Shown here: positions 49,564-51,914 of the stretch, piece after piece
Numbering within the stretch: the first letter of the stretch is position 1
How the letters are laid out: every line of letters begins with the position of its first letter
Assembly (NCBI GenBank): GCA_902544065.1
Contig: CACCAS010000002.1
Location: 65,517 to 129,516 of the forward strand
Reading direction: 5' to 3'
DNA from: an uncultured Pelagibacteraceae bacterium
GTDB taxonomy: Bacteria > Pseudomonadota > Alphaproteobacteria > Pelagibacterales > AG-422-B15
DNA: 64,000 nt
Translations under genes and position numbers: made by a program
The notes under the pieces: generated by a model
What the model was told of the DNA's origin: nothing
Databases searched by the model: none
What the model saw: only the letters and a program-made list of their open reading frames with translations

Positions 49564-49591
49564 TAATGTATTATTATTGTAAAATACATTA
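49564..49591. promoter_or_regulatory. Inverted repeat in the fabA-irr intergenic region
   Basis: TAATGTATT (49564-49572) and AATACATTA (49583-49591) form perfect nine-base arms around a ten-base spacer in the 93-nt region that must hold promoters for both fabA and irr. The centre-to-centre distance is about 19 nt, nearly two helical turns, which would suit a dimeric regulator. The regulator is unknown, and the sequence is very A+T-rich, so chance is possible. Confidence 0.35.
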
Positions 49592-49613: not shown

Positions 49614-50006
49614 ATGAATGATATTAAGCAGTTTTTAAGATCTAATGCTTTGAGACCAACAAAGCAAAGAATAGTAATAGCAGGCTACTTATTCGATGGT
49701 ACCGATAAGCATGTAACTGCTGAAAGCTTGTCTACGGAGCTTGCTAAAAGAAAGCACATAATATCACTGGCAACAATTTATAATACACTTCACGATTTTT
49801 ATGAAAATGGACTTTTGAAAAAACTTACTCTTAGCGCTGATAGAGTCTATTTTGATACAAACACAGATGATCATCATCATTTTTATTCTGAAAAGGAGCA
49901 ATTCCTAATTGATATTAATAAGAACATAAAAGTAAATGGCTTGCCTAAAACTCCAAGAAATAAAAAGATTAATAAGATCGAAGTTATTGTACACCTCGAT
50001 AAGTAA
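49614..50006 (+). CDS. irr: Iron response regulator Irr (Fur family)
   Basis: Irr is the heme-responsive Fur-family regulator of many alphaproteobacteria; it controls iron and heme genes through ICE boxes. The 130-residue protein has LRPTKQRIVIAGYLF and IISLATIYNTLHDFYENGLLKKL in the winged helix. The Irr-typical VYFDTNTDDHHHFY carries the three-histidine cluster used for heme or metal sensing. The N-terminal heme regulatory motif with Cys-Pro found in Bradyrhizobium is absent. Its place opposite fabA and directly before a rubrerythrin operon supports the call. Two palindromes lie immediately behind its stop codon. Confidence 0.9.
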   Translation: MNDIKQFLRSNALRPTKQRIVIAGYLFDGTDKHVTAESLSTELAKRKHIISLATIYNTLHDFYENGLLKKLTLSADRVYFDTNTDDHHHFYSEKEQFLIDINKNIKVNGLPKTPRNKKINKIEVIVHLDK

Positions 50007-50024
50007 TTGATAATAGTTATCAAT
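50006..50024. promoter_or_regulatory. Perfect palindrome immediately after irr
   Basis: ATTGATAATAGTTATCAAT has eight-base arms with a three-base centre and starts on the last base of the irr stop codon. No T-run follows, so it is not an intrinsic terminator. Its GATAA/TTATC half-sites look like operators of Fur-family proteins, but the regulator cannot be named. The centre is 23 nt from the centre of the next palindrome. Confidence 0.5.
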
Positions 50025-50029
50025 ATCAG

Positions 50030-50046
50030 TTTAGAATGATTCTAAA
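50030..50046. promoter_or_regulatory. Irr-box (ICE)-like palindrome upstream of rubrerythrin
   Basis: TTTAGAATGATTCTAAA is a perfect 8-1-8 palindrome, equivalently TTTAGAA-N3-TTCTAAA, the pattern I remember for the iron control element bound by Irr. It ends 3 nt before a consensus -35 hexamer of the rubrerythrin promoter and lies directly downstream of irr itself. Irr can activate or repress depending on position. Binding has not been shown here. Confidence 0.65.
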
Positions 50047-50049
50047 GTG

Positions 50050-50077
50050 TTGACAAAATTTGAATCAACTCTAAATA
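50050..50077 (+). promoter_or_regulatory. Candidate promoter of the rubrerythrin operon
   Basis: TTGACA at 50050-50055 is a perfect -35 hexamer. TAAATA at 50072-50077, 16 nt further on, is a weak -10. A weak -10 with a palindrome just upstream of the -35 is typical of activated or tightly regulated promoters. A GAGG ribosome-binding site follows at 50103, 8 nt before the rubrerythrin ATG. Confidence 0.5.
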
Positions 50078-50114
50078 AAGAAATTATAAATTAATTATTA
50101 TTGAGGAAGAAGAC

Positions 50115-50534
50115 ATGACTGAATTAAAAGAAAGCAAAACACTTGACAATCTGAAAGCAGCATTTGCTGGTGAAAGTCAAGCAAACAGAAGATATTTATA
50201 TTTTGCTCAAAAGGCTGACGTAGAAGGTCACAATGATGTAGCTGCAGTATTTAGATCTACTGCCGAAGGTGAAACTGGCCATGCTCATGGTCATTTAGAA
50301 TTCATGGAAGAAGTTGGTGATCCAGCGACTGGTGAACCAATCGGATCAACAGAAGATAATCTAAAAGCTGCAATAGCAGGAGAAACGCATGAGTACACAG
50401 ATATGTATCCTGGTATGGCAAAGACAGCACGTGAAGAAGGTTTCGATGAAATTGCGGACTGGTTTGAAACGTTAGCAAAAGCTGAAAAATCTCACGCGGG
50501 TAAATTCCAAAAAACACTAGACTCAATCGATTAA
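50115..50534 (+). CDS. Rubrerythrin (erythrin form, no rubredoxin domain)
   Basis: The 139-residue four-helix protein carries the full di-iron ligand set of rubrerythrin: Glu20 in [10 protein letters not shown], Glu53 and His56 in [10 protein letters not shown], Glu90 and Glu93 in GETHEY, and Glu124 with His127 in AEKSH. The C-terminal rubredoxin domain of classical rubrerythrin is missing, so electrons must come from another protein. Rubrerythrins reduce hydrogen peroxide. It is the first gene of a cluster with a CCG-type Fe-S protein and DUF3501, behind an Irr-box-like palindrome and a good promoter. A GAGG site 8 nt upstream fixes the start. Confidence 0.95.
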
Positions 50535-50573: not shown

Positions 50574-51914
50574 ATGGATTATAAAAAAGAAGGAAGCCTC
50601 GCTGCACCTACTAGGGATCTAGTAGATTGGAATTCTGATAGTTACACCAACGAAGAAGAGTTAAACGCTGAGATGAAAAGGCAGTTTGAGGTTTGTCATA
50701 GTTGTAGAAGATGTTTTAATCTCTGTGATAGCTTTCCGACGCTATTTGATTTGATTGATGACTCTCCAAATGAATCAGTTGATGATCTCACCAAGAAAGA
50801 TTTCGAAGGCATTACAGACAAATGCACGCTTTGTGATATGTGCTTTATGACTAAATGTCCATATGTTCCACCACATGAGTTTAACATTGATTTCCCTCAC
50901 CTTATGTTGCGTTATAGAACTTTTCAGGATAAGCAAAATAAGTTGCCAAAAATTCCAAAAGAGTTGGCTAAAATAGATCGCAACGCTAATCTAGCCAAAA
51001 TTTCTCCCACTCTTGCAAACTGGAGTTCCGATAAAAAAAATAGTCTAACACGGCGTCCACTGGAGATGATAAGTGGCATTGATAAAGACGCTGAGTTACC
51101 TAAGTTCGAAAAAAAGACATTCCATGAACTATTGGAGAAAATTGATATTAAAGTAAACGCAAGTGCACCTGCTTTTGGAAGAAAAGTTGCAATTTACTCA
51201 ACGTGCTATGTAAATTTCAATAATTCAAAGGTTGGAATCGCTGCTCAAAAAGTACTAAACCATAATGGTGTTGAAACTATCTCTTCATACCCCGGATGCT
51301 GCGGCATGCCACATTTAGAGCAAGCTCAGCATGAAAAAGTAATTAAACAGTCAGAAATTGTTTCTGAAGAACTCTGCAGCTTGATAGACCGGGGATATCA
51401 AATTGTTACTTTAACTGCGAGTTGCGGACTCATGCTTAAGTTTGAGTGGCCACTTCTCAATCCTAATAACGAAAATGTAAAAAAACTATCAAAAAATGTT
51501 TTTGATATTGATGAGTTTATTGTTGATATAAGTAAAAAAGAGGGATTAGTTGAAGGTCTTAATTCTCTTGATGGAGGAGTGACTGTTCACAATGCGTGTC
51601 ACGCAAGAGCTCAGAACATGGGTAATAAAGCTATGGAAATGTTAAAGAAATTACCTGATACAAAAGTTGATGTTGTAGAAAAGTGCGCAGGGCATGGAGG
51701 AACTTTTGGAGTTATGAAGAAAACTCGAAAGTCTGCAAACAAGTACGGCAAAGCAACAGCTAGACAAATTAAAAATAAGAAAAATAAGTTAATGGTTTCA
51801 GATTGCCCACTTGCTTGCAAGCACCTTAATGAGTTTTTAAACGAAGACAAAGACTCTAATTATATTTCAATGCATCCAATAGAAGTATTAGCTCAAGCGT
51901 ATAATCTCTCTTGA
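50574..51914 (+). CDS. CCG-domain iron-sulfur protein (GlpC/heterodisulfide-reductase-related)
   Basis: The 446-residue protein has two N-terminal 4Fe-4S motifs (Cys41, 44, 47, 51 and Cys84, 87, 90, 95), then two CCG-like domains. The first has STCYVNFNN and YPGCCGMPHLEQAQ. The second has VHNACHARAQNMG and, in place of the usual CCG, KCAGHGGTFGV. Relatives are GlpC, GlcF and HdrB, which pass electrons between dehydrogenases and quinones or thiols. No membrane segment is seen. The start lies only 3 nt after a strong hairpin and lacks a visible ribosome-binding site. With rubrerythrin before it and DUF3501 after it, an electron-supply role is plausible but unproven. Confidence 0.88.
   Translation: MDYKKEGSLAAPTRDLVDWNSDSYTNEEELNAEMKRQFEVCHSCRRCFNLCDSFPTLFDLIDDSPNESVDDLTKKDFEGITDKCTLCDMCFMTKCPYVPPHEFNIDFPHLMLRYRTFQDKQNKLPKIPKELAKIDRNANLAKISPTLANWSSDKKNSLTRRPLEMISGIDKDAELPKFEKKTFHELLEKIDIKVNASAPAFGRKVAIYSTCYVNFNNSKVGIAAQKVLNHNGVETISSYPGCCGMPHLEQAQHEKVIKQSEIVSEELCSLIDRGYQIVTLTASCGLMLKFEWPLLNPNNENVKKLSKNVFDIDEFIVDISKKEGLVEGLNSLDGGVTVHNACHARAQNMGNKAMEMLKKLPDTKVDVVEKCAGHGGTFGVMKKTRKSANKYGKATARQIKNKKNKLMVSDCPLACKHLNEFLNEDKDSNYISMHPIEVLAQAYNLS

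Follow-up and report, generated by a model that had tools for sequence, protein, structure and literature searches.

A predicted Irr operator ahead of a rubrerythrin operon, and a putative exchangeable peroxidase slot behind irr, in Pelagibacterales

Overview

In the window (the whole 64,000-nucleotide stretch of Pelagibacteraceae DNA analysed here), a 17-nt palindrome at positions 50030-50046 lies between irr, which encodes a Fur-family iron/heme response regulator, and a rubrerythrin operon. From its sequence and its distribution, this palindrome is very probably an operator for Irr (an Irr box, or ICE), through which the product of the adjacent irr gene would control rbr-RFO-DUF3501, most likely by repression when heme or iron is low, with a second palindrome, P1, adding control by Fur. 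The assignment of the site as an Irr box is in itself highly probable. Comparison with other Pelagibacterales favours, with somewhat less assurance, a broader reading: irr would trail a single exchangeable "peroxidase slot", holding either a non-heme rubrerythrin operon or the gene for the heme enzyme KatG, but not the two together; through several swaps of the gene behind it, the operator for Irr would survive. This would constitute a self-contained module for the control of peroxide defence by heme and iron, with a joint Fur-box and Irr-box operator in the rubrerythrin form found in this genus.

The cells of SAR11 bacteria, the group to which the Pelagibacterales genome of the window belongs, rank with the most abundant in the ocean. 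Because their regulators are few and genetic tools for them are lacking, it is valuable to be able to deduce a regulator and its target from sequence. An alternation between heme and non-heme peroxidases behind one heme sensor would provide a testable reason for the existence of KatG and rubrerythrin lineages, and would help to forecast how peroxide defence tracks iron supply. Genomes with katG, but without irr or the operator, provide a natural control.

The site and its genes

The features of the locus are as follows.

49614-50006, + strand: irr, Fur-family iron/heme response regulator of 130 aa with an HHHF (HxH) motif (NCBIfam IrrA; FUR domain PF01475)
50007-50023, + strand: P1, TTGATAATAGTTATCAA, a perfect 17-nt palindrome resembling a Fur box and beginning immediately after the irr stop codon
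50030-50046, + strand: P2, predicted Irr box (ICE), TTTAGAATGATTCTAAA, assigned from sequence, uniqueness and conservation
50050-50055, + strand: -35 element of the rbr promoter, TTGACA (perfect), assigned from sequence and from its conserved place after the ICE
50072-50077, + strand: likely -10 element, TAAATA, weak in this strain and TATATA in siblings
50103-50109, + strand: likely ribosome-binding site, GAGGAAG, assigned from sequence
50115-50534, + strand: rbr, short "aerobic-type" rubrerythrin of 139 aa without a rubredoxin domain (PF02915)
50574-51914, + strand: RFO, GlpC-like Fe-S oxidoreductase, second gene of the rbr cluster (profile matches; cluster described in PMC5114695)
51946-52539, + strand: DUF3501 protein, third gene of the rbr cluster (PF12007, 208 bits; PMC5114695)

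The sequence TTTAGAATGATTCTAAA (TTTAGAA-TGA-TTCTAAA) is symmetric except at its unavoidable centre base and is an exact match to TTTAGAA-N3-TTCTAAA, which we take to be the ICE (Irr-box) consensus. The earlier note had described a 17-nt palindrome of this pattern, downstream of irr and 3 nt ahead of a perfect -35 element before rubrerythrin, and each part of that description proved exact: irr ends at 50006, GTG is all that separates the palindrome from TTGACA, and rbr starts at 50115, 68 nt from the end of the ICE to the ATG. The exact pattern occurs once in the window and once in the 1,263,973-base genome (18 contigs searched), with about 0.004 matches expected per 64 kb at 31.4% G+C. Near-matches are not enriched, either in the window (13 with at most three mismatches, versus 27 expected from shuffling) or across the genome (46 with at most two mismatches, versus 83 for a reversed-motif control), so the significance of the site comes from its position and conservation. 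A consensus scan of this strain did not pick up the TAAATA -10 element.

The assignment of the regulator is based on profile scores. The Irr models are the best match of the irr product, ahead of those for Fur, PerR and Zur, with 149.6 bits for NCBIfam IrrA (cut-off 150) and 145 bits for Irr (cut-off 170), against no more than 67.8 bits for the PerR and Fur models. These scores fall short of the NCBIfam cut-offs, narrowly in the first case and clearly in the second, which counts against the operator reading; the lineage is a divergent one. Residues H87 and H89 of the HxH heme motif are invariant in the corresponding alignment (A2). The genome has three Fur-family genes, encoding Irr, a canonical Fur and a Zur-like protein beside a zinc-type ABC transporter. 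The fabA-fabB-fabI genes are the divergent neighbours of irr, and the fabA-fabB block is kept beside irr in many loci. The rubrerythrin has no rubredoxin domain and its gene is located together with RFO and DUF3501, as in aerobic-type rubrerythrin clusters; the nearest solved structures are short rubrerythrins and sulerythrin. An identical rubrerythrin is encoded by a relative in the Pelagibacteraceae (L154). The genome of the window has no match to katG.

A second palindrome resembling a Fur box

P1, which was overlooked in the earlier note, is also found only once in the genome, and its centre lies 23 bp from that of the ICE. It fits a 7-1-7 inverted repeat of the TGATAATNATTATCA type, with one mismatch to the degenerate string. 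In the sister subclade it takes the form TTGATAATAATTCTCAA, which is one base off TTGATAATCATTCTCAA, the commonest box in sfu iron-uptake promoters; in the genus, the sfu promoter contains the core TGATAATCATT(C/A)TCA in every readable locus. Outside Pelagibacterales, Fur-like boxes are present within 60 nt upstream of the ICE in 10 of 37 alphaproteobacterial irr-rbr loci, versus 0.8 expected. From these resemblances, we infer that P1 is probably read by Fur.

Conservation of the site together with irr

Within the genus, the ICE is present at all 29 rbr loci with no more than one mismatch, and TTGAC always begins after a gap of exactly 3 nt. Mean pairwise identity is high over P1 (93%), the linker (99%), the ICE (94%) and the -35 element (91%), but drops to 73% in the spacer and to 51% in the -10/leader region.

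Conservation over longer distances was assessed in 80 named loci encoding close relatives of the rubrerythrin, by searching for the ICE in the 250 nt before rbr. The irr gene lies directly upstream of rbr in 50 of these loci, 39 of which have an ICE with at most two mismatches (0.13 expected from shuffles), the remaining 11 having an ICE only with three or four mismatches. The irr-rbr loci with an ICE span SAR116, PS1, Rhodospirillales, Parvibaculum and Reyranella, and in most irr-rbr loci TTGAC follows 2-6 nt past the ICE. The 30 loci without an adjacent irr gene, chiefly from Caulobacter, Phenylobacterium and Novosphingobium, mostly show four to seven mismatches. Five of them reach two mismatches or fewer: in L170 irr lies 1 kb away, in L201 irr was not identified, and in L188, L219 and L220 the matches belong to another palindrome type, TTAGAnTnAGTCTAA. 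In several Sphingomonadales lacking irr, a Fur-type box, TTGCGAATTATTCGCAA, is found about 4 nt before TTGATC, where the ICE sits elsewhere. The palindrome, on whose presence upstream of orthologous rubrerythrin genes the earlier note had made its reading depend, is thus kept in the genus, in the order and in many Alphaproteobacteria in which irr adjoins rbr, and, conversely, is missing from loci without irr or gives way there to another box.

Two observations on the loci without adjacent irr may be added. L188, L219, L220 and L223 have in common a different palindrome, of the TTAGATTAAGTCTAA type, which hints that there the rbr operon answers to a different regulator. The rubrerythrin promoter of L170 (about 1390-1490) carries three ICE copies (upstream, before the -35 element and in the spacer); its source is a metagenome-assembled genome labelled Flavobacteriales, with genes resembling those of Alphaproteobacteria.

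A putative peroxidase slot behind irr

In Pelagibacterales without rbr, the gene following irr encodes KatG, a catalase-peroxidase of 723-745 aa, again behind an ICE (for example, L150:3317-5551 and L147:1061-3235). Among 198 Pelagibacterales genomes, 118 have katG, 68 have rbr and none has both. Could the genomes be treated as independent, which is not the case, the hypergeometric probability of zero overlap would come to 5e-41. At the loci with irr coordinates, the gene concerned lies directly downstream of irr in every case (102/102 for katG and 61/61 for rbr), at a distance of 49-149 nt. An ICE is present in all 54 regions examined downstream of irr, whether rbr or katG follows (53 with at most two mismatches and one with three). 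Five katG-bearing Pelagibacterales genomes have no Irr-type match (G036, G039, G040 and G147, which are single contigs, and G068), and the best ICE match upstream of their katG has four or five mismatches: without the regulator, the operator is absent too.

On a tree of Irr proteins, the alternation of katG and rbr needs five changes, at least two of which are forced by well-supported branches. The adjacency of irr and rbr is widespread in other Alphaproteobacteria, so rbr is probably the ancestral occupant of the slot, replaced more than once; the outgroup rows of the tree also have rbr, having been chosen among rbr loci. A 2024 survey of SAR11 recorded the presence of KatG and, for 4 of 28 members, that of rubrerythrin, and the accessible portion of its text does not mention their mutual exclusion (PMC11366302). 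The coupling of peroxide defence to iron/heme sensing through adjacent genes, which had been proposed from the layout of this one locus, emerges stronger than foreseen, because where rbr is lacking katG occupies the same slot, behind an ICE of the same kind.

Direction of control

Irr binds the ICE when heme is scarce and is released on binding heme, and it may repress or activate, depending on the position of the ICE (PMC7762939). Published Irr sites lie ahead of mbfA and ccpA, and mutation of irr confers peroxide resistance; in B. japonicum, reactive oxygen seems to promote the heme-dependent loss of Irr (PMC3413700). When heme or iron is scarce, a heme-free Irr dimer would most likely sit on the ICE of the window, covering the upstream edge of the -35 element and keeping the rbr operon down. 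Heme would relieve this hold, as would, by analogy with B. japonicum, a loss of Irr promoted by peroxide. P1, about two helical turns upstream of the ICE, could add control by ferrous-iron status via Fur, which could reinforce either sign of control by Irr.

Repression at low heme or iron is the sign that we consider somewhat the better founded. The ICE lies on the -10 element of katG, over the -10 element of irr itself in the sister family, as expected for an autoregulated Irr, and on the spacer or -10 element of several sister-family rbr promoters, which fits repression. In G041, ICE-like sites flank the -35 element on both sides. In the genus of the window, the ICE borders a perfect -35 element on the upstream side only, a place also used by activators and, to that extent, a point against the operator reading as given; from there, Irr would repress by blocking or, less probably, activate.

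The same operator might therefore work with the reverse sign. Irr upstream of the -35 element would activate rbr at low heme or iron, and iron-loaded Fur on P1 would repress it when iron is plentiful, so that the non-heme peroxidase would stand in whenever the cell is unable to produce heme enzymes. This is possible, though we regard it as doubtful. It is consistent with the activator-like place of the ICE, the end of which lies 2-6 nt before TTGAC across distant Alphaproteobacteria, and with the statement that Irr activates directly more often than Fur does, according to ICE position (PMC7762939). In Ca. Pelagibacter ubique, rbr rose 1.57-fold under iron limitation, which is opposite to simple repression by Irr, but the effect on the array was small (PMC2864753). 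Several sister-family rbr promoters also have an ICE over the spacer or -10 element (in L184 the best ICE is found only there), the katG and irr promoters have theirs on the -10 element, and a perfect -35 element should need little help; all three points argue against activation.

Identity of the reader

Alternatively, Fur might be the protein that recognises the palindrome, or a single member of the Fur family might recognise both palindromes. The ICE and Fur boxes have the same symmetry, the ICE is two bases off the 17-mer Fur-type string, and ICE-like sequences are also present in the sfu promoter. The site nevertheless tracks irr and not Fur: G036 and G039, which lack irr, have a Fur-family match and no ICE before katG, and the Sphingomonadales without irr have a different box, TTGCGAATTATTCGCAA, in its place. 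The presence of an ICE in the promoter of irr itself also points away from Fur, and this reading is unlikely.

Still less likely is a role of the two inverted repeats at the RNA level, as a 3' end or processing signal of the irr mRNA. Two short hairpins could form (-10.5 kcal/mol), but with a z-score of only -1.6, and there is no predicted terminator on the + strand and no Rfam match. Variants in siblings break pairs in P1 (TTGATAA..TTCTCAA) and in the ICE (..TTCTAAT) while keeping the binding-site consensus, and the site is also found ahead of katG and of irr itself. A chance palindrome in AT-rich DNA, with which the number of near-matches in the genome (at or below random frequency) would agree, is extremely improbable for a site that is exact, unique, position-specific and conserved through the order and beyond.

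Relation to known systems

Irr, the ICE and the rbr cluster are already known; the case is one of a known regulator in a new target arrangement. As far as can be told, the novelty lies in the exchangeable peroxidase slot linked to irr, in the strict mutual exclusion of its occupants among the genomes sampled and in the combination of a Fur box with an Irr box. A literature search, the coverage of which did not include the Irr-regulon prediction of Rodionov (2006), found no paper that connects this rubrerythrin, or the katG of SAR11, with the Irr regulon.

The site resembles the Irr box of Rhizobiales and Rhodobacter in its inverted repeat, in the adjacent peroxide or iron gene and in its predicted reader of the Irr family. 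It differs in that the target, here in Pelagibacterales, is rbr-RFO-DUF3501 (or katG) right behind irr, and in being paired with a Fur-type box in the genus of the window. In Rhodobacter, binding of Irr is reported for mbfA and ccpA (PMC3413700). The "rubrerythrin-like" proteins Bradyrhizobium blr7895 and Rhodobacter mbfA are likewise ferritin-like diiron proteins controlled by Irr (a control that is predicted here), but they are membrane-bound ferritins, whereas the protein of the window is a soluble rubrerythrin of 139 aa. The operon shares with the aerobic-type rubrerythrin cluster (PMC5114695) its rbr-RFO-DUF3501 composition and the lack of a rubredoxin domain; that paper mentions neither Irr nor a regulator, whereas the operon here is coupled to irr and an ICE. 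The iron-limitation response of Ca. P. ubique concerns the same order, with sfu and rbr responsive to iron and both Fur and Irr present, whereas the accessible part of the study reports no analysis of Irr sites and finds rbr slightly up at low iron (PMC2864753). In Magnetospirillum, an iron regulator also directly controls a catalase-peroxidase, katG, but this regulator is Fur rather than Irr and no link to irr was reported (PMC3251581).

Other sites and loci

An ICE-like sequence, TTTATAATAATTCTAAA, lies directly before a 1-Cys peroxiredoxin gene (G000 C3:148221-148237, L294). It is unproven as a second Irr target: it overlaps a TATAAT-like -10 element, is present in only part of the genus and is lost in most of the sister family. 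The sfu promoter (L074:3700-4944, G000 contig C10) has a conserved Fur-type box and, close to the start codon, a sequence resembling the ICE; another ICE-like site is found at this locus ahead of the permease gene. The divergent fabA-irr promoter region of the window has no ICE, unlike the irr promoters of the sister family; it contains an inverted repeat, AATGTATT/AATACATT, at 49565-49590, perhaps the site of a fatty-acid regulator. One locus, from a genome labelled as belonging to the same genus (L149, G020 contig C6:45223-49794), carries an irr-katG pair of the sister-family type adjoining sfu, attributable to module transfer or to a misassigned bin.
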